A stretch of 64,000 nucleotides of DNA, taken from the NCBI GenBank assembly GCA_012934845.2, contig WNNJ02001952.1, positions 176,718-240,717 on the forward strand, in the 5' to 3' direction. Under the pieces are notes generated by a model, which saw only the letters and a list, made by a program, of their open reading frames with translations, was not told where the DNA came from and did not search any database. Below are positions 711-64,000 of the stretch, piece by piece (the stretch's first letter is position 1; each line of letters opens with the position of its first letter). This stretch comes from Pomphorhynchus laevis (lineage: Eukaryota; Acanthocephala; Palaeacanthocephala; Echinorhynchida; Pomphorhynchidae). The position numbers and the translations under genes were made by a program.

Positions 711-3031
711 ATTGTGAATAAAGGCGTTTCCGACACTTTGCTTAATTGTCCAAGGCTTACGCTCTTTATCAGATCGAATTGCTGTGCGGACCATTCTTAA
801 ACACTAGGCAGAGGTTGTTGCTGAATTGTCGCTGCAATCGTTGGATCTTTAATGGATAGGGCATGTATAATAGTAGTGCACGGATGTGCTGAGTAGACAA
901 CGGTCCAGGATTTATTTCGAAATACGACATTTAACACAATGGTGTTGCTTGATAGACTATACTTCGATTCAAGACTTTCAGTCACCATGTCACTTCTAGA
1001 CGATCAATGAGTACCCGGCAACACTCATCAGTAGAATGAAGTACTCACTGGCCGTTTCGGTTGCCTGTGTGACATTGTGAATAAAGGCGTTGCCTACACT
1101 TTGCTTAATTGTCTGAGGCTTACGCTCTTTACCAGATCGAATTACTGTGCGGACCATCCTTAAACACTAGGCAGAGGTTGTTGCTGAATTGTCGCTGCAC
1201 ACGTTGTATCCTTAATGGATACGGCATGTATAATAGTAGTGCACGGATGTGCTGAGTATACAACTGTCCAGGATTCCTTACGAAATACGGTATTTATACT
1301 AAATGGTGTTGCTTGATAGACTGTACTTCGATTCACGACTTTCAGTCACCATGTCACTTCTAGACGACCAATGAGTACCCGGCAACACTCATCAGTGGAA
1401 TCAAGTACTCACTGGTCGTTTCGGTTGACTGTCTGGCATTATAATAAAGGCGTTTCCGACACTTTGCTTAATTGTCTGAGGTTTACGCTCTTTACCAGAT
1501 CGAATTGCTGTGCGAACCATCCTTAAACACTAGGCAGAGGTTGTTGCTGAATTGTCGCCCCACTCATTGGATCCTTAATGGATACGGCATGTATAATAGT
1601 AGTGCACGGATGTGCTGAGAAGACAACGGTCCAGGATTTCTTACGAAATACGGCATTTATACTAAATGGTGCTGCTTGATAGACTGAACTTCGATTCACG
1701 ACTTTCAGTCACCATGTCACTTCTAGACGACCAGTGAGTACCCGGCAACACTCATCAGTTAAATGAAGTACTTACTGGTCGTTTCGGTTGACTGTGTGGC
1801 ATTGTGAATAAAGACGTTTCCGACACTTTGCTTAATTGTCCGAGGCTTACGCTTTTTATCAGATCGAATTGCTGTTCGGACCATCCTTAAACACTAGACA
1901 AAGGTTGTTGCTGAATTGTCGCTGCACTCGTTGGATCTTTAATGGATAGGCCATGTATAATAGTAGTGCACGGATGTGCTGAGTAGACAACGGTCCTGGA
2001 TTTATTTCGAAATACGACATTTAACACAATCGTGTTGATTGTTAGACTAGACTTCGATTCACGACTTTCAGTCACCATGTCACTTCTAGAGCAATTCGAT
2101 CTGGTAAAGAGCGTAATCCTCAGACAATTAAGCAACGTGTCGGAAACGCCTTTATTCACAATGCCACACAGTCAACCGAACGACCAGTAAGTACTTCATT
2201 CTACTGATGAGTGTTGCCGGGTACTCATTGATCGTCTAGAAGTGACATGGTGACTGAAAGTCGTGAATCGAAGTCTAGTCTATCAAGCAACACCATTTAG
2301 TATAAATAAAGTATTTCGTAAGGAATCCTGGACCGTTGTCAACTCAGCACATCCGTGCACTAGTATTATACATGCCGTATCCATTAAGGATTAAACGAAT
2401 GTAGCGACAATTCAGCAACAACCTATGCCTAGCGTTTAAGGATCGTCCGTATAGCAATTCGATCTGGTGAAGAGCGTAAGCCTCAGACAATTAAGCAAAG
2501 TGTCGGAAACGCCTTTATTCACAATGTCACACAGGTAAACAAAACGACCAGTAAGTACTTGATTCCACTGATGAGTGTTGCCGGGTACTCATTGATCGTC
2601 TAGAAGTGACATGGTGACTGAAAGTCGTGAATCGAAGTCTAGTCTATCAAGCAACACCATTGTGTTAAATGTCGTATTTCGAAATAAATCCTGGACCGTT
2701 GTCTACTCAGCACATCCGTGCACTACTATTATACATGCCCTATCCATTAAAGATCCAACGATTGCAGCGACAATTCAGCAACAACCTCTGCCTAGTGTTT
2801 AAGAATGTTTCGCACAGCAATTCGATCTGATAAAGAGCGTAAGCCTCGGACAATTAAGCAAAGTGTCGGAAACGCCTTTATTCACAATGTCACACAGGTA
2901 AACAAAACGACCAGTAAGTACTTGATTCCACTGATGAGTGTTGCCGGGTACTCATTGGTCGTCTAGAAGTGACATGGTGACTGAAAGTTGTGAATCGAAG
3001 TCCAGTCTATCAAGCAACACCATTTAGTATA
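711..3031. repeat. 363-bp tandem repeat array with internal orientation switch
   Basis: Four units lie in one orientation (starting near 714, 1077, 1440 and 1804). The fourth is cut at about 2090, and from there the same unit continues in the opposite orientation (boundaries near 2158, 2521 and 2884) until about 3031. Units are roughly 90% alike by eye. Each carries the words CTGATGAG and, about 30 bases away, CGAAACGACC on one strand, as in hammerhead-bearing repeats, but I could not fold a convincing ribozyme. Short ORFs inside (about 63 codons) merely repeat with the unit. It may be a retrozyme-like element or a satellite. Confidence 0.85.
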
Positions 3032-3050
3032 TATATTATGTTTTTTTAAT

Positions 3051-3121
3051 AACGAGCTAAGAGCAGAAAATATTCAGTGAATATTTATTATCCATTTAAT
3101 ATTTTCCGCTCTTAGCTCGTT
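3051..3121. repeat. Hairpin of about 24-bp arms
   Basis: AACGAGCTAAGAGC and the adjoining GAAAATATT recur as a near-perfect reverse complement about 25 bases downstream (mismatch at one position). It lies just beyond the end of the 363-bp array. It could be a foldback remnant; no gene is nearby for it to terminate. Confidence 0.7.
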
Positions 3122-3656
3122 TTTTGAAGAACATGATATGTATACGGTATTCTATTGAAGGATCTGAGCTAATGGTTATTTTGGATATTAACACATATAT
3201 ACATATATATAATTTATAACTAATTCATATATTATAACTAATGATATTTTAAATTAAAATTATATTATTAATTTAATTATGTAATATCATTTAATAATGA
3301 AATTATTAAATGAAATAATAAATTAATAATTATATAATTTAAAAATAGAGAAAGCATTTATTTGTTGAAATAAGTGTTTTACTATTCTATTGTCAGAGTA
3401 TTTTTATTATACGACATAAAACATTTAAATTGTTTTTACGTTTAAATTAAATAATTTTGAAAAAAATTCCATGCCAGATTTACCCGTTACGGTCAATAAT
3501 ACATGGACTCGTACTGCATTGTACATTAATCATAATATCTCTATTTAATGTCTAATTTTGCAGTGTATAAAACATCATATTTTACATCAAAGAAAATTTT
3601 GAAGCTGATTTCAATTCCTATACATTCTGATTTTAAATCTAATGTTTAGTCCAGCA

Positions 3657-7400: not shown

Positions 7401-8456
7401 AATATAAACTTCAATATTTTATTTATAACATATTTTGATTCTCCTTTGTAAGTATCCATTTCTGTTTCCTTTTCCAAATGTGATAAAAACCGTGACTTGA
7501 GTGATTAATTGGCACTGCTAACAGAACAGAAAAATTTACAAGGAAATTGCATGTACTCAATTTACAATAAAAAGTCGATATTTCGTAACCAAGGTATCTA
7601 TACTTTTCCTCCGAAGAGGAGAAAATATATTTCAAGTAAAATTGATCGATGGTTAGTATTTAATTTTATTTGTGGGATTTATTTATCTCATATGATATTT
7701 TACGGTCTGAATTAATTAATTGAATTGAAATTAAATTATTTTAATTTGATTTAATTTATTTCTTATTTTGAAATTTTATAAATATAGACATCGAAATTAT
7801 AAAAATGTGCTCGATATTGTATTAAATACGGACTACAGTTACTCTAATAAGATTGTCTAAAGGACGAATCCACAAGATTTCCATTCTCCTTAAAATTAAT
7901 TTTCATTTTTTCACAGCTGATCAATTAATTCAAATTTTTTACTTGTAAAAAAATGTTGGCAAGTCAATCATATCAAACTCTGATATTGTAGAATGAGCTG
8001 CGCTGTAAATAGGAAATTAAATTAAAAAAATTTAATTTAAAAAGCTTTTTAATTTAATTAAATTTAAATCAAATTTATAATTTGATTTATTTAATATATG
8101 CCGTTCGAACATCGAGAGGAATAATAAAATAAGAAATTTTTGACTAATAGTATTTTTTAATTGTTATGTTTTAACGCATAAAAGTGATTATTCAAATCTG
8201 TCCTTTTCAAGTCCACTTGAAAAATACTATTCAAGTTATGAATACAACATGACACTTGAAAATTTAAGAGCACATCTAACATATCATTGGACAACATAAA
8301 AAATATATTATAAATAAGATTGTTCATTCATTTAAGAATATTTATAATTAGGAAAGTGACAAATATTTATTTGAAGTCAACATTTTTGATAACGACTGCT
8401 ATCATCACCAGGATAAAGTATTACATTACAAGAATTGCTGTTCAAATTAATTTAAT
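7401..8456. other. AT-rich intergenic DNA
   Basis: Overlapping short ORFs on both strands at 7423-7715 show no family signature. Nothing else is recognised. Confidence 0.45.
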
Positions 8457-8546
8457 GTAATAAACAAATAAATCACTTTTCCCGCTTATTTTTATATTCT
8501 GATTGAAGGAATCGGGAAGACTCAAACAGCATAAACTGATTCTATA

Positions 8547-8621
8547 CTGTATCAACTTTTGAGTCTCATCAGTAGGGGTTGCTACACAACTAGATTGAAG
8601 TGCAACAACCCTAGACAGCTC
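8547..8621 (-). ncRNA. Hammerhead ribozyme, unit 1 (probably impaired)
   Basis: On the minus strand: GAGCTGTC (cleavage triplet GUC), stem I 5' strand TAGGGTTGTTGCAC, loop, stem I 3' strand, then CTGATGA, stem II GACTCAAAAGTT, and GATA in place of the required GAAA, followed by CAG pairing with CTG before the cleavage site. The A-to-T change in the GAAA box should reduce or abolish cleavage. Confidence 0.6.
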
Positions 8622-8858
8622 AATAAGTCTTCCTTGTACACATCAATGCACTAATGATTAATACTGGTGAGAGTATTCATCAAGAATAATAATCTCAGTA
8701 AGACCTAACATATAGGTTTCAAACGCACTCTTATCGAGTACATACACCAAGCCCCTTCATTGCTGGTTGTAATGAAATAAATGGATTACTTTTCCCGCTT
8801 ATTTTTATATTCTGATTGAAGGAATCGGGAAGACTCAAACAGCATAAACTGATTCTAT

Positions 8859-8934
8859 ACTGTATCAACTTTTGAGTCTCATCAGTAGGGGGCTGCTGCA
8901 CAACTAGATTGAAGTGCAACAACCCTAGACAGCT
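8859..8934 (-). ncRNA. Hammerhead ribozyme, unit 2 (probably impaired)
   Basis: It has the same layout as unit 1: GUC before UAGGG; a stem I of 5 plus 8 bp with a small bulge (UGUUGCAC pairs with GUGCAGCA); intact CUGAUGA; stem II with a CAAA loop; GAUA instead of GAAA. The bulge in stem I is the place where natural metazoan hammerheads make their loop-loop contact. Confidence 0.6.
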
Positions 8935-9207
8935 CAATAAGTCTTCCTTGTACACATCAATGCACTAATGATCAATACTGGTAAGAGTATTCATCACGAA
9001 TAATTATCTCACCAAGATCTAACATATAGGTTTCAAACGCACTCTTATCGAGTACATACACCAAGCCCTATCATTGCTGGTTGTAATGAAATAAATGGAT
9101 TACTTTTCCCGCTTATTTTTATATTCTGATTGAAGGAATCGGGAGACTCAAACATCATAAACTAATTCTATGTTGTTTCGCTCAAACAGCATAAACTGAC
9201 TCTATGA

Positions 9208-9283
9208 TGTTTCGACTTTTGAGTTGGAAATCAGTAGGGGGCTGCTGCACAACTGGATTGAAGTGCAGCACCCCTAGATAAAA
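9208..9283 (-). ncRNA. Hammerhead ribozyme, unit 3 (core damaged)
   Basis: This unit keeps GTCGAAAC and a near-perfect stem I (TAGGGG with CCCCTA, then TGCTGCAC with GTGCAGCA, two-base bulge). CTGATGA has decayed to CTGATTT and the cleavage triplet reads AUC. Together with its neighbours it shows what the ancestral ribozyme looked like. Confidence 0.5.
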
Positions 9284-9401
9284 CCTTGTACATATCCCTG
9301 TACTATGTAGGAATTAACACTGGTGAGAGTATTCATCACGAATAATTCACTCACCAGGACCTACAAGTACGGTTTAAATGATGTGTACTGGGACTTATTG
9401 A

Positions 9402-9476
9402 GCTGTTTCGTGGTGCTGCACTTCAATCAAGTCGAACAGCAGTCCCCTACTGATGAGACTCAAAAGTCGAAACAGC
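9402..9476 (+). ncRNA. Hammerhead ribozyme, inverted copy with intact core
   Basis: On the plus strand: GCTGTT (NUH triplet GUU), a partly mismatched stem I around GGTGCTGC and AACAGCAG, then CTGATGA (9450-9456), stem II GACT-CAAA-AGTC, GAAA (9469-9472) and CAGC, which pairs with GCTG before the cleavage site to give a 5-bp stem III. All core bases (CUGANGA and GAAA) are present. Stem I is weaker than in unit 3. Confidence 0.65.
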
Positions 9477-9492
9477 ATAGGGTTAATTTAAT

Positions 9493-10103
9493 TTATTAAA
9501 TTAATTTAAATTTAATGAATTTTTCATTTAAATTATTTAATCCAAATATTAAGCTGAATTAGTACTCCAAAATTGAAGATCTTAATTATAGACTAAAAAT
9601 TAAAATTTATGACGTGCACAAACAATATTTAGAGACGTACACCCATTATTTTTTTAAATTACATTAATGAATACCATTAAATTGCATTAATGAATATTAA
9701 GATCCAGTACATTTTTAGATTTAGATTCATTTCAATTGATATTAATGATTTGACAAAATTTAATTCATGCATTGTTCAAATTTCAACTTTTTTGACGTCG
9801 AAAATTTAACGGCAATTCGAAAGTAGAAATATGGATGCAATATAGTTTTTGCAATTATTTTATACATTTAGAAAAATATGTAGTTAGTAAATAATATTTT
9901 TCTTGTGATTTCGAGTCATTTTACAATGAATCGAATAAAAATCAACATCTGTAATTTAGTTTTAAGTTAATTAGCTTAAGATTGGAAACTGAACATCAAA
10001 GGGGGAAATTAAAATTTAATTTTTATTAAAGTTAATTGGATGAAATTGATCTTTAAAATTTAGGTAACCACAATTAAGATGCGTTGAAATCTTAAAGGAA
10101 ACA
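9493..10103. other. AT-rich 5' flank of the EI24-like gene
   Basis: No coding signal or recognisable promoter motif. It presumably holds the promoter and 5' UTR of the next gene. Confidence 0.4.
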
Positions 10104-11081
10104 ATGCAGAATAAAAATTACCCGTTTTACAATTGCATTGTATTAGCGCTTGATGTGCTAAATGGTTTTTTAGCAGGGTTAAGGCATTTTTTAATCGGAT
10201 TCACCACTGTTGTTATCTTTGAATTAAAACTGTTAACTAATATTCAAAGCAGATCCGCCTATTATAGTGAGAAGCTATCTCGAACAATTTGGATTGCACT
10301 TATCTGTCAATCACTGCTGTTCGTTATTGTATCCTTAACGTACGACTATCTCTTAATTCCCTTAAATATCAAAGTGCACGAAACCATAATAGGGAATTGT
10401 AATTTGATTGATAAGTATCAACTCTTGATAAATGTAATATATACAGTGTGTTGGTCCGTACCTGCGTTTATCCTAAGTAAAATATACGGAGGAAAGATAG
10501 CTTTGCTTATGTTTAAAAGAACACAGCAAGAAATATCCGCTAATGTCGCTGAAGCGAAAGGTCAACAAAAATTGAATGACAAAAGAATAATTCCAATACA
10601 AAAAAAGTTTGAACAAATGTTCACACTCAGTGGTACCTATGTACTTATAATCGTTATTAAATTAATCACGGCTGATTATCTCATATGCAGAGGGATAGTG
10701 AATGCATGTCTTTCACTTCTCTATGCATTCTATGCATTTGATTTTTCGTGGACTTTAAATGGTGAAGATCTGAAGAACCGATGCACCAAGCTTGCTCAAT
10801 ATTGGCCCTACTTCACCGGCTTTGGAATCACCTTCGTTGTTGTTCTCGGAAAGGCGTCAGCAATAAGTTTTCTAACAAGCACAGCTGTATACGTGGTCAT
10901 ATATCCGCTATTGGTCATGGTTGCTACGAGAATACAAAATGAAAAGATGTATATTAAGTATAAAGCGCCATTCGGTTTCTGGATATTACATCCTGCCAAC
11001 TATATAATTAACGTATTGATCAACAATTGGAACCTGTTTTATAAGTGGTTTGTACAAAAATATGAGCCCGTGAGTATTTAA
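10104..11081 (+). CDS. EI24-family ER membrane protein (etoposide-induced 2.4 homologue)
   Basis: A single uninterrupted 325-residue frame, close to the 340 or so residues of animal EI24. It has several hydrophobic segments (around residues 8-40, 61-85, 108-130, 172-210 and 236-275). The family hallmark is clear: an aromatic-rich stretch LLYAFYAFDFSWTLNG is followed by a charged linker and WPYFTGFG at 234-241, matching the YxFEY...WPYYFGFG region of known EI24 proteins. Upstream, WSVPAFILSKI resembles the WVLPLFVLSK segment. EI24 is an ER membrane protein linked to autophagy and p53-induced cell death in mammals; that role here is inferred from the family. The N-terminal part is diverged and lacks the long basic stretch of vertebrate EI24, so an upstream exon is possible, but the ATG at 10104 fits. 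No intron is visible. The gene lies between the arms of a 1.1-kb inverted repeat. Confidence 0.85.
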   Translation: MQNKNYPFYNCIVLALDVLNGFLAGLRHFLIGFTTVVIFELKLLTNIQSRSAYYSEKLSRTIWIALICQSLLFVIVSLTYDYLLIPLNIKVHETIIGNCNLIDKYQLLINVIYTVCWSVPAFILSKIYGGKIALLMFKRTQQEISANVAEAKGQQKLNDKRIIPIQKKFEQMFTLSGTYVLIIVIKLITADYLICRGIVNACLSLLYAFYAFDFSWTLNGEDLKNRCTKLAQYWPYFTGFGITFVVVLGKASAISFLTSTAVYVVIYPLLVMVATRIQNEKMYIKYKAPFGFWILHPANYIINVLINNWNLFYKWFVQKYEPVSI

Positions 11082-19483: not shown

Positions 19484-21247
19484 TCACATGTGTGCGGCGA
19501 AAATAAAATCATCGATCTTTAGAATCTGCATGATAGTTTCCGTAGCAAGCAGAACAGCACTTGAGCTAACCAGTAAAGGTTGAACAACGTTTTCTTCCCA
19601 CATGTCAGCAACACCACCGCGACGGACACTAACACCGGCTGAACATTTGGAAGGATTTTCATTAGCATGACGCTGTCGTAGCTCAGTAATAATATCGATT
19701 GAATTAAGACCCGCATTCTCGGCTAATGTAAACGGTATAATTTCCATGCTTTCAGCATATGTCCTTACACAATACTGCTCGAGACCACTTAATTTTGATT
19801 CTGCGTATTGTGCTAAACGAACAGCCATTTGAATTTCAGGAGCACCACCTCCAGGTAGAAGAGCACCCTGTTTTACTAAGCACCGAATAGTGCATAATGC
19901 GTCATGAAGACTACGTTCGGCTTCGTCTAGTAATAATTGATTGCTCGCATGGAGAATCACAGTGACAGCCTTTTTACCGAGACCAACTCCCGTGAATCGA
20001 ACTAATCGACCAAGATCGGTAGATTCGCCTGAACGTTCAACGAGTTCGGCGTACCCAAAAGCATCCGGTTTAAAGTGGTCAAATGAAGCAATCGGACGAC
20101 AACCAAGACAACGACAAACACTTTCAACGTCATCTCGTTCAATGTCTCGAACGACCATAATCTTGGCCTTACCTAGCATGTGTAATGCGAGCTCACTAGC
20201 CGCATCACGTAAAATCGACTTTTGAATCAGCAGAACATTACATCCCGATTTCTTGATGCCTTTAATCATTTCTAGGATATAATCTCTTTCTTCACGTAAA
20301 GCACGATCGAGTTGTGTGTGATCACTTAGAATTACATTGTGCTCAATATCCGTCTTTGGAGCGCTGATACAAAACTGTATTAGGGCTACCTTCGCCTTTT
20401 CCATGCGTGTCGGACCACCATAACCAGCGCTGTCCTGGTCAAGGACTAAACCTTCTACGAGCTCCGTATCGTCGATTGTTCCAGATAATCTTTTTATTAT
20501 TCTAACTCTTTTAAGATTAACACTTGGACTTCCGACCAGTGTATCATCGTTTCCTCCAGGTAAAACCTTGAGCACCGCGTTGACAGCAATCTCTGCTAAT
20601 AAAGAGCTACACTGACTGACGACCTTGCTGCTTAGCGAAGTTACCGCACTCTGCAAAAGAGCGGATTTATCACTTAAGTCTACAGGTTTGCTCATCGCCT
20701 GTAAGATATTATTCGCCTCCTTCCCAGCCTTTTGGAACGATTGACTAATTATACTTGGATGGATTCCTTTTCTCAACAGCTTCGATGCGGCGTCTAGCAT
20801 TCCTCCGGCTAAAATCACAACTGTGGTCGTACCATCGCCAGCTTCAACATCCTGGCTACTGGAAAGTGACGCTAGTAACTTTGCAACTGGATGGAGTAGC
20901 TGAAATACATATAAAGAGAAATGATGTAAAAAGCTAAATCGATATTTTGATGAATAAAGATTTTTTCATATGAATATAGCTATTAGTACCTGCATCTGTT
21001 TGAGGATAGTAGCACCATCGTTTGTGATCGTGACATCCTTATTAGACGCTACTATCATCTTGTCCATACCACGAGGACCAAGACTGGTACGAACAGCATC
21101 CGCAACAGCTTTGGCAGCAGTTATGTTAGAATCACGAACCGCACTGGGTTTTTTTCGATTTGTAAAACGGGCTTCGCTCGTTGTCGCGGAACTAACCGAC
21201 GCATATGACTTAGATGTGGGTGCTTGCAATAAAGTTGCAGTCGCCAT
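19484..21247 (-). CDS. CCT4: T-complex protein 1 subunit delta (CCT4 chaperonin), two exons
   Basis: Exon 1 is 20990-21247 and exon 2 19484-20899, separated by a 90-bp GT-AG phase-0 intron, giving 557 residues (family about 540). It is one of eight subunits of the cytosolic TRiC/CCT chaperonin that folds actin, tubulin and other proteins using ATP. Seen directly: [11 protein letters not shown] at 54-64, NDGAT at 76-80 and the ATPase motif GDGTT at 107-111. Further on are [25 protein letters not shown] and GGGAPE, followed by TLAENAG and VQPLLV near the C-terminus. CCT4 fits better than other subunits because of [10 protein letters not shown] and DNA-encoded spacing typical of delta. The middle and the C-terminal tail (FIFAAHM) are diverged, suggesting a fast-evolving lineage, but no key residue is missing. 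The ATG at 21247 is the only upstream in-frame start before stops. Confidence 0.96.
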
Positions 21248-33530: not shown

Positions 33531-34004
33531 TTATTTATTATCCATCCATAAAAATTTGCCACTTAAGAGTTTAAATTCATTCTTTATATTATTGTGTTGA
33601 TTTATATATTTTACTATTTTCTGCTTGATGTTATTTTTATAGTAACCTAGTTTAAAATATGTATCTATTATATTATTTAAATGATTTTTAAGAAAGCCAA
33701 TATCATTACATATTGTTGCAATTCTTAAAATTTCATTATTTAATGTATTATATTTTATATTATATGGTATGCATGAATGCTCATGCAAAAATATGTTTCT
33801 TGTAAATTTAAATATGTCATCTTTACGATATAAATTAATAGTAGTTTTAGTTAATGTTAATTTAATGTTCATATCTAGATAAACACCTTCTTTATCATTA
33901 ATATTGGTTTTGTTAAGAATAAGGCTTTCTGGATAAATTTGTTCACTAATTGAATAAAGATTATTAGAATTAAATACACATATATCATCAATATATCGGA
34001 ACAT
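33531..34004 (-). pseudogene. Penelope-type reverse transcriptase, C-terminal fragment
   Basis: The 157-codon frame opens with FRYIDDICVF, the RT catalytic box in the RYIDDI form. IYPESLILNKTNI, VYLDMNIKL, INLYRKDD, an HEHSCIPYN block and ILRIATICNDIGFLKNHL follow. This order (catalytic box, YP..L..N, LD..I, YRK, S.IPY, LRI...C) is that of Penelope-like RTs. The N-terminal fingers and palm and any GIY-YIG domain are absent, so this is a fragment. Three related pieces lie at 54540-54860, 55025-55222 and 55714-55870. Confidence 0.7.
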
Positions 34005-34179
34005 ATTCCATTATATATCTTTATATAATTTAGATTTATTTTTTACACAGTTATGAACAACTTCATTTTCTATAATGAAGTTGATGTTTTTAATTAATGT
34101 TAATTTAATGTTCATATCTAGATATAATATACCTTCTTTATCACAGCAAAATTTATACAGATAAATTTATTAAATTATA

Positions 34180-49265: not shown

Positions 49266-51380
49266 CAGTTAAATTATCGATGAATAATAAATAAACCGAA
49301 TTTGAAAAATAAATAAATAAAGAAATTTAATGTGATCCTTGGTTTTGATGTTTTTACTATTTCCTCAATTCTAGGCTTAAAGTTTGTAAGCTTCATTCTC
49401 ACGTCACCTCTCGAACATATGTTTATTCTATTTCTTTCTTTAGTTATTATTTTATTTACTGTACTAAAACCACATTCCACTAAATAAGAAGACGGAAAAC
49501 ACAGCAAAATATTGGTCATTTCAGTCCAAATCGTAGGATATTGCATTGAACATCGATAAGTTCTTCTTGAATGTTTTCTTTAACACATTCAATATCACAG
49601 TCAAAGGGGTCAATCATCCATGGCTTAATATGCAAAGAAAATTAATCCGAAAACCTACTAAGAAATTCCTGCTTTAGAGTAGACAAGTATTCAAAATAAT
49701 TGAATAAGTCTTGATCAGAAAGAAAAGACTCTACATTTTTCATCTCCTGCATATTTTTAAAGTTTCTCTTCAATAAGTTGTTCTTAAAAACTTCTGTTCT
49801 CTGTAAAGGCCTTAATAGTACGCTTACAGTCGATCAGAGTAACAAGTTTTCCTTGCAATTTCAGCGATATTTCATTAAGCTTTCTGAAAATAAATGTCAT
49901 AAAGTTTATATCGTTTTTATGGGCATTCAGCTCGTCTCTTCTATCGAATTCCTTTTCTTCTTCCAGGAAAGAAATAATTGTGTCAAATAAGCAAAAAAAT
50001 CTTGCAAGGAAATTACCTTTAGATAACCATCGTATTTCAGTGTGGAGAAGTAATCTATTGTATTGCTCATTATTGTCTTTACAGAAATCTGAAACAATAT
50101 GTCACACTTTGGATTTGTCTTTATCTTGTTTACTACCTTGGTGACAAGCCTTAAAGAAGAATTAAGAATATGACTTATGTTCTTTGCCACTAAGTATGAC
50201 GATGTATAATACAGTGGATAGTTAATATTTTTGGACAAATGTTCTTTAAAAATGAAATAAACCCCTTATGTCTTCCAATCATAGCAGGGGCTCTGTCAGT
50301 AGCACATAATATCAAATTTTTAAATGGTATTTGTTTTTCTTCGAACCAAGATTCAACACCTTCGAATATTGATGCTCCTGTTGTGTCTGTTTTTAAATAC
50401 TTCATAAATAAGATTTCTTCGTGTATTTGAAAATCGTCATCAATAAAGCGGACATATGACATCAGCAGGGCTCTACTATCGCTAACACTTGATTCGTCAA
50501 TTTAAATAGAAAACTTTCTAGTTTTTAGTTTTTCCATTAGCTGTCCTTCAACATCTTCAGCCATTTCATCGATTCTTCTTCAAATTGAATCGTTGTTTAG
50601 TGGAATTGTATTAATAATTGTTTCGGTATCTTCTATTTTTAAAACTGTTTTGAGAAGAATCTCAAATGCGGGTTTTAATAGTGTTTCAGCAACGGAATGC
50701 GAGCTACAGGTTTTATAGATTAGTGCAGCAAATTCATAGGAAGAAATCAGTCCTTTTGAACTTTCAAATATGCTTTTTAAACATACCAATAAGAGTTGAA
50801 GGTTTATCAAAAATTTCTTTTTCTTTTGGAAAATATTCAATTCCTTTATCTATTTTTTCAGCATGGACTCTTTTATGGTGTTCGAGGAGCCTTGAAGGTT
50901 TCATAGCTTCATTAGAGAACGGTTTGCGACATAAAAGACAGAATGGAATATCTTTCTCATAGGGACTTTTGATGAATCCAAAAGCTAAATACTCTACACT
51001 GTATTTGCGCCATATTTTTTTCTTCTGTCATAGTAAAGGATAATTTTTATAAAAAAAAACTTGAAAGAAATATATTAACTGTAATAAAAATCAATATGGT
51101 GCCAAAAATCATTTTTTACCATGCAATTAATAACAAATTCGACTTTATTTTATTAAAAAAAACGACTAACACATTTAAAAGTTAAAGTTTCCTGCATGTG
51201 AACATTAAAATCTTGTGTAGATTTAAAAATAAATGTTTAAGAAATAAATTTATACTTTTACATCAAAAAGTTTATAAGATTTTTCTTCTATGTTTTTACC
51301 AATTTTCACAAACAAAATCGCCCACCTGGAAAATATTTTCGCCCACTAGTGGGCGATATCGCCTAGGTTGAGAACCCCTG
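49266..51380 (-). mobile_element. ZBED5-like hAT DNA transposon remnant
   Basis: Minus-strand fragments in order: a BED-type zinc finger (YLAFGFIKSPYEKDIPFCLL with C, C, H, H spacing, about 50880-51020); SYEFAALIYKTCSSHSVAET and PLNNDSI (50580-50840); MSYVRFIDDDFQIHEEILFM, NLILCATDRAPAMIGRHKGF and LTIHCIIHR (50190-50462); and the C-terminal dimerisation segment SSYLVECGFSTVNKII, RNRINICSRGDVRMKL (49274-49546). Stops and frameshifts separate them. The plus strand at 51366-51380 reads GGTTGAGAACCCCTG, the reverse of a CAGGGGTTCTCAACC hAT terminus. The 49266 end is less clear. The element probably split LINE copy C. Confidence 0.8.
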
Positions 51381-63480: not shown

Positions 63481-64000
63481 GCACAAATCAGATAAGATAC
63501 CTGAGTCTAGTATTTTATACTATATATTAATAAAATTAAAGACAAATAATAGATGATGATATCAGATTTTATACAGTTTATATTTATTTCAAGTTAGAAT
63601 TTAAAATTTAAATTTAAAATAAAGGTCAATTTTTATGAATTGACTAATAAATAACAGACGTTGTATTAGAATAAGAATTAGAAGTCATCAGGAGGAACTG
63701 CTATGTAATCAGGCTTGGGCTCTATTCCTCGACCCAACATAACAGTGGGCACAATTCTCAATAATTCTTAAAAATCAATTTTTATGAATTGACTAATAAA
63801 TAATAGACTATGTATCAGAATAATGATTAAAATTCATCAGAAGGAATTGCTGTGTAATCAGGTTTCGGCCCTATTCCTCGACCCAACATAACAGTGGGCA
63901 CAATTCTCAATAATTCTTAAAAATCAATTTTTATGAATTGACTAATAAATAATAGACTATGTATCAGAATAATGATTAAAATTCATCAGAAGGAATTGCT
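63481..64000 (+). repeat. Two or more tandem dispersed AT-rich repeat ends, running off the window
   Basis: AATTGACTAATAAATAA, a TATCAGAATAA(G/T)-like word and CATCAG(G/A)AGGAA(C/T)TGCT recur at about 63635, 63785 and 63935. The 150-base block ending GGGCACAATTCTCAATAATT is repeated. The third copy is cut by the window edge. Confidence 0.75.

Follow-up and report, generated by a model that had tools for sequence, protein, structure and literature searches.

Analysis of a 64,000-nucleotide window from the acanthocephalan Pomphorhynchus laevis, an animal of the rotifer clade (PMC7310846), revealed a 313-bp repeat array at positions 8457-9482 with about three units, an additional inverted piece, and the parts of a hammerhead ribozyme on each unit's own strand. 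The array is probably an old and decayed insertion of a non-coding, non-autonomous, retrozyme-like element that carries a type III hammerhead and would have spread by a putative Penelope-like reverse-transcription cycle. The terms ribozyme, satellite, and Penelope occur zero times in the text of PMC7310846.

Architecture of the array and its hammerhead motifs

TRF placed a repeat of period 314 at 8456-9171 (2.3 copies, 95% matches) and BLAST laid out units 1-3 head-to-tail over 8466-9363, in agreement with the 313-bp tandem array that an earlier sequence-only reading had proposed. Model R1, whose scores are given below, was built from A1, which includes the unit 1, unit 2, and inverted copies that thus match by construction, while the unit 3 copy was not in A1. 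The following features were assigned:

8466-8776, minus strand (ribozyme sense): unit 1 of the 313-bp repeat (BLAST with unit 2 as query, 95%; TRF)
8778-9090, minus strand: unit 2, the reference unit q1-313 (TRF, BLAST; GC 0.37)
9092-9363, minus strand: unit 3, diverged (73%; TRF, BLAST)
9379-9480, plus strand: inverted partial copy, q132-236 (BLAST)
8547-8621, minus strand: unit 1 hammerhead, predicted type III, GAUA for GAAA (RF00008 27.0 bits; model R1 89.2 bits)
8860-8935, minus strand: unit 2 hammerhead, predicted type III, GAUA for GAAA (RF00008 26.8 bits; model R1 97.1 bits)
9207-9284, minus strand: unit 3 hammerhead remnant (model R1 76.9 bits)
9400-9475, plus strand: inverted-copy hammerhead (RF00008 22.4 bits at 9437-9478; model R1 85.5 bits)

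Unit 3 contained an internal 34-bp duplication at 9147-9214, and the array (GC 0.38) was flanked by TTAATTTAATGTA and TTAATTTAATTTA. Its longest stop-to-stop frame was 77 amino acids, an ORF search of the array gave no frame of 120 codons, and coding capacity for a reverse transcriptase or GIY-YIG domain was absent, making the 313-bp element non-autonomous at best. A 337-codon frame at 10068-11081, about 0.6 kb from the array, matched EI24/CysZ at 21.5 bits (cut-off 32) and CD34, also below threshold. Elsewhere in the window, a chaperonin ORF at 19484-20965 matched P. laevis GJ496_007386 at 99%.

On the ribozyme strand, the family majority sequence reads GAGCUGUC^UAGGGG-UGCUGCAC-loop-GUGCAGCA-GC-CCCCUA, followed by CUGAUGA-GACU-CAAA-AGUC-GAAACAG and, in most copies, a further C. 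Helix I comprises 6 + 8 bp interrupted by a 2-nt bulge and capped by a loop of 12 nt, helix II has 4 bp and a CAAA loop, and helix III has 5 bp and is open, with the predicted cut after GUC. With loops closing helices I and II and helix III left open, the hammerhead of the 313-bp unit is, on its sequence layout, type III, a topology also given by RF00008 alignments over the full model length. The column-majority sequence held all core letters and 22/22 pairs by inspection against the structure used for the covariation test.

A scan for complete hammerheads found none within the array, and no window copy is intact. Units 1 and 2 contained GUC, 5/6 pairs of lower helix I, CUGAUGA, and helix II, with GAUA replacing GAAA; unit 3 contained AUC and GAAA, with CUGAUGA broken and 2/5 pairs in helix III; the inverted copy contained both core boxes, with 4/6 pairs in lower helix I. 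The sequence-only reading had described minus-strand cleavage triplets (GUC or AUC), stems, and boxes together with decayed cores in units 1-3, all of which were recovered, and an intact core in the inverted copy, which holds for the letters of both boxes but not for the fold.

The genome-wide family, its insert ends, and strand switches

A DNA search of the genome gave at least 107 matches (40 of 302 candidates scored), dispersed over dozens of loci. The first set of 39 fetched loci plus the window yielded 91 hammerhead copies, including 56 with CUGAUGA, 67 with GAAA, and 43 with both, while 14 passed a loose fold test. A further 21 loci were chosen by an intact-core pattern and two duplicates were dropped, such that the extended set comprised 58 loci plus the window with 122 copies, whereof 66 carried both core boxes and 58 the whole core. 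A complete core together with complete lower helix I, helix II, and helix III was present in 9/122 copies, none of them in the window. Exact matches to a 27-nt core pattern numbered 42 in the genome compared to zero for the reversed control, and 15 of the 42 lay within the first set, which gives a very rough estimate of 250 hammerhead copies for the family (91 x 42 / 15). The family copies are old, as the median between-locus nearest-neighbor identity was 0.91 in the extended set.

At gathering cut-offs, Rfam gave zero hits in the window (RF00008 cut-off 48.5 bits). As this search gave nothing, a permissive scan over 4227 families was used, in which RF00008 matched with E values of 0.0031, 0.0034, and 0.062 (27.0, 26.8, and 22.4 bits) and no RF00008 match was listed for the unit 3 remnant. 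Across six fetched loci, five copies reached 38.9-39.4 bits (E about 1e-5) at L060 (two), L018, L017, and L043, L057 scored 25.8 bits (E 0.079), and no hammerhead was among the Rfam matches listed for L052; the best score of 39.4 bits was below the cut-off. The short helix I of RF00008 led to a 29-nt insertion in the alignments of these copies. Copies read as naturally intact include those at L017 (832-910, minus strand), L060 (1638-1715, plus strand), and L018 (1203-1280, plus strand). A genome-wide RF00008 search (E up to 1; 68 of 56174 candidates scored) gave at least five matches, all below cut-off, and below-cut-off matches also occurred in 3/14 control genomes.

No covariation was detected across 66 copies and 22 pairs, with 85.9% of cells paired compared to 86.0% in shuffles and 8 double-change pairs compared to 6.9. 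Sliding the partners by 1-3 columns lowered pairing to 28-55%, so the structure belongs to their common ancestor, while the changes within the copies themselves ignore the pairs. Decay without covariation would be expected for dead-on-arrival retroelement copies, and the case for function thus rests on the ancestral fold rather than on selection among copies. Column conservation was only slightly higher in the core (0.923) than in the rest of the ribozyme (0.892) and the flanks (0.864). The whole unit folded more stably than shuffles (z -4.1), although the minimum-energy folds of the whole unit and of four shorter fragments never contained a complete hammerhead and, in the whole unit, a competing hairpin occupied the 3' strand of helix III, so the ribozyme fold is not the predicted ground state. 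By the sequence-only reading, its claim would be refuted if no hammerhead model scored above threshold and if substitutions among genomic copies ignored the predicted pairs. Both were observed, the best window match having an E value of 0.003, and neither was taken as refuting because helix I of RF00008 is short, intact copies reach E 1e-5, and dead copies would be expected to decay without covariation.

The outer ends of 59 array clusters were mapped, with classes A and B defined after the first end distribution had been seen; 84 of the 94 outward-facing 3' ends of the unit fell into one of the two classes. Class A lies at about q283 and class B about 25-29 nt further on. Within the window, the corresponding sites and the candidate target-site duplication are as follows:

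8495-8505, plus strand: family end site A, read inward TATTCTGATTG, about q283 (end mapping; the window insert ends elsewhere)
8466-8483, plus strand: family end site B, equal to A plus the 'tail', about q312 (end mapping)
8447-8459, no strand: candidate target-site duplication, left copy (12/13 match with the right copy)
9483-9495, no strand: candidate target-site duplication, right copy (flank comparison)

The window insert itself has no clean A or B end (class x/x), its left end being placed beyond B and unclassified. The two-ended inserts (n = 35) comprised 25 A/B, 3 A/A, zero B/B, and seven with an unclassified end, including the window insert, so that 25/28 classifiable inserts had one end of each kind. 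As the one-ended inserts (n = 24) split into 13 A, 10 B, and one unclassified, A/B pairs were in excess over independent ends (binomial p 1.2e-5). Flank repeats scoring at least 7 were found in 20/59 inserts compared to 9.5% of 600 re-paired flanks, and those scoring at least 10 in 11/59 compared to 1%. The best candidate target repeats were longer than 4 bp and varied in length, with exact lengths uncertain because the ends were given six bases' slack. Strand switches comprised 38 head-to-head and three tail-to-tail cases; 17/38 head-to-head joints were symmetric, a number matched by 7 of 5000 permutations, and several joints lay, by eye, inside a palindromic stretch near q124.

The pattern of ends, tail, and duplications matches the 'tail' signature described for Penelope-like elements, and a tail of about 30 bp at one of the two inverted ends was present in the 25/28 classifiable inserts. 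Rotifer Penelope elements are described with an inverted pLTR, an optional 31-bp tail on one inverted end, 8-10 bp duplications, and palindromic head-to-head joints (PMC3846280). For the lizard Penelope protein, reverse transcription is reported to start at two adjacent internal sites bounding the tail, with a preference for AT-rich DNA (PMC11167929). Penelope-like elements thus resemble the P. laevis family in tandem and inverted copies, an optional tail of about 30 nt, duplicated targets, and symmetric head-to-head joints (PMC3846280; PMC11167929), whereas the P. laevis unit is without an ORF and their hammerheads are minimal type I (PMC7761336).

Proposed cycle, alternatives, and comparison with known systems

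In the proposed cycle, tandem units would be transcribed by read-through and the hammerhead would cleave the transcript, with ligation then giving unit-length circles, as suggested by the type III fold and the described retrozymes. A Penelope-like reverse transcriptase would cut the target DNA and prime cDNA synthesis at internal site A or B, the sites at which the inserts were observed to end, and tandem units would result as the enzyme went repeatedly round a circle or read along a multimer. The head-to-head inverted copy and the duplicated target site may then arise when the cDNA folds back on itself or synthesis is primed from the opposite DNA end, leaving the 'tail' at one outer end only; these structures are present in the genome, and their order of formation is the likely one under this scheme. 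Cleavage, circles, and enzyme are what we infer. In the window's unit, the hammerhead cut site precedes the A and B ends by about 120 and 149 nt, so copying does not start at the ribozyme-cut linear end, and either a circle or a multimer would serve as template.

The same distance between ends and cut site suits a miniature Penelope-like element templated by linear multimers of read-through RNA, in which the hammerhead would process the RNA and insertion would proceed without a circle. Hammerhead mutants of the lizard Penelope element were reported to leave insertion in vitro unaffected (PMC11167929), and symmetric head-to-head joints suit self-priming (PMC3846280). Against this, the roughly constant head-to-tail spacing of about 300-315 bp would come most simply from a circle, although array amplification also gives it, and we regard the linear route as a serious possibility that falls short of being the favored one.

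Inverted copies on both sides, seen as two outward 3' ends in 35/59 inserts, could instead belong to a DNA transposon that ends in inverted repeats and is tandemly repeated in its interior. This is improbable, as the ends differ by about 27 bp in 25/28 classifiable cases, 24/59 inserts have a single outward 3' end, and the candidate duplications vary in length. Equally improbable is a plain satellite that recombination has spread and whose hammerhead-like motif is functionless: it would account for the missing covariation and the decay of most copies, but not for short, scattered inserts that have defined ends and target-site repeats, nor for the complete hammerheads of the majority sequence and of 9/122 copies. 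Most improbable is a metazoan retrozyme of the ordinary type I kind, which fits in size, tandem array, GC of 0.37, and lack of a long ORF (PMC7229834) but whose layout is contradicted by the strand order, with helix III open and helix I closed, a type III model as the best Rfam family over its full length, and bases after the would-be type I cut that mismatch the helix I strand by inspection. These three alternatives were all ranked below the retrozyme-like element with a type III hammerhead.

Metazoan non-LTR retrozymes are described as lacking LTRs and carrying hammerheads of type I (Cervera and de la Pena 2020, PMC7229834), and a 2024 review again gives type I for animals (PMC11722881). The P. 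laevis family shares with them non-coding tandem units in the 150-450 bp range, GC below 50%, many loci, and, where present, target repeats longer than 4 bp, and differs in its type III hammerhead (PMC7229834). Of the sequence-only reading, the hammerhead, the animal genome, and the short non-coding tandem repeats with many dispersed copies were supported, but plain membership among the metazoan retrozymes of PMC7229834 was not, as those are defined by a hammerhead of type I. A second difference is that insert ends and inverted copies were characterized for P. laevis, where the element is known from DNA and its circles are presumed. Plant LTR retrozymes (PMC4918200) are described with a type III hammerhead and a 4-bp helix II, as in the P. 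laevis unit (PMC7761336; PMC11722881), although with a spacing of 600-1000 bp compared to about 313 nt (PMC7761336; PMC11722881), and their 4-bp duplication contrasts with the candidate duplications of more than 4 bp and the head-to-head inverted copies of P. laevis.

Animal type III hammerheads have been described in HDV-like agents of toad and termite, with motifs in termite and fly genomes (PMC7936874). These share a long helix I built of two stacked stems with an interruption; they occur in circles of 1.5-1.7 kb or, in termites, as isolated motifs, compared to tandem repeats in P. laevis, and have a 6-bp helix II and loop complementarity compared to a 4-bp helix II and CAAA loop (PMC7936874). 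No loop-loop pairing was seen by eye in the P. laevis hammerhead. Titles and abstracts of the open-licence PMC papers listed in the literature searches pointed to neither a type III retrozyme in animals nor an acanthocephalan hammerhead. Unpublished work on type III hammerhead elements in 'bacteria or insects' is noted in a 2020 review (PMC7761336), such that others may already have type III animal elements.

Penelope-like elements have been called 'a strong candidate' for mobilizing animal retrozymes from co-occurrence and shared features (PMC7229834). The end, tail, and duplication statistics make the question of the mobilizing enzyme testable from genome sequence alone in other species with retrozymes. 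If the proposed origin is correct, the P. laevis family would be direct structural evidence for retrozyme insertion by Penelope machinery, and a division into 'type I in animals, type III in plants' would fail. The presence of type III in tandem repeats of an animal also blurs the plant/animal split used in discussions of the origin of viroids and HDV-like agents.

A candidate reverse transcriptase was present in the window:

33531-34010, minus strand: RT-like ORF piece (at least 150 genome copies at 95-100% identity; 150 of 21853 candidates scored)

Pfam gave no domain in this ORF, nor in the related L094 with its 624-codon frame. The abundant ORF is read as a putative reverse transcriptase from a YIDD-type motif, seen by eye, and from the domains of L094 homologs, as RVT_1, GIY-YIG, or both are present in some of the 120 listed. 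Reverse transcriptase and GIY-YIG form the domain pair of Penelope-like elements. A comparison of end motifs between the RT-like element and the retrozyme gave a common 9-mer, TATTCTGAT, and a similar stretch in inverted orientation, although the search revealed no cis sequence common to the two elements that would prove partnership. The RT-like copies are about 97% alike compared to the median nearest-neighbor identity of 91% in the hammerhead family, and since the hammerhead copies are old, this RT-like family need not be the partner. A 149-bp tandem repeat at the right end of the window (63626-64000) matched the RT-like element in its 3' region. The same region in L097 contains crossing complementary segments, GGCCCC/GGGGCC and GCTGCTATG/CATAGCAG, with a CUGAUGA and a GAAAC; Rfam identified no ribozyme in the 3' region of the RT-like element.

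A 363-bp repeat family and other hammerhead-like motifs

A second tandem array, with a 363-bp unit and hammerhead blocks, lies at 711-3035 of the window and turns head-to-head at about 2090. Its blocks are ordered GAAA, CUGAUGA, and cut site, which from sequence corresponds to type GCS in the naming of PMC10085705, one of three non-circular hammerhead permutations with one weak, bacterial candidate described in that source. Among 12 fetched loci of the family, the CUGAUGA block was found in seven and the whole segment in six, while L103, L109, and L110 (3/12) had 5, 7 (one bulge), and 17 pairs in stems I, II, and III. The GCS limits (I 4, II 5, III 5) were passed by no window copy and by none of 50 shuffled windows. 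A 33-nt core string of the family had 335 genome occurrences compared to zero for the reversed control, and the copies compared look very alike.

The 363-bp family may be another retrozyme, one whose hammerhead is permuted. Its ribozyme may form between neighboring units, because in one molecule the 17-bp helix III would hold the CUGAUGA block far from its place. The family would offer hundreds of copies of an order with one weak published candidate (PMC10085705), adding a naturally occurring hammerhead of type GCS (non-circularly permuted) that is present in many copies. We lean slightly toward the broader proposal that P. laevis has type III retrozymes with a Penelope-like two-site tail together with a GCS 363-bp family, in a genome holding type III, minimal type I, and GCS hammerheads. 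If true, all three would occur in repeated elements of a single animal genome.

A long imperfect hairpin at 3029-3143 (GAGCTAAGAGC arms) marks the right edge of the 363-bp array; its matches to microRNA models were weak and below cut-off, and it is probably just a palindrome. The scan for complete hammerheads also gave one hit elsewhere in the window, at 50560 on the minus strand, with a type I layout. Hammerhead-like motifs with a 5-nt helix II loop were found at L009 (1501-1545), L011 (1501-1558), and L013 (1501-1550), the three exact pattern matches genome-wide; the L013 motif is known from the pattern match alone, and the L011 motif reads, by eye, as type I in layout, its helix III being palindromic and loopless in the manner described for Penelope-like elements.
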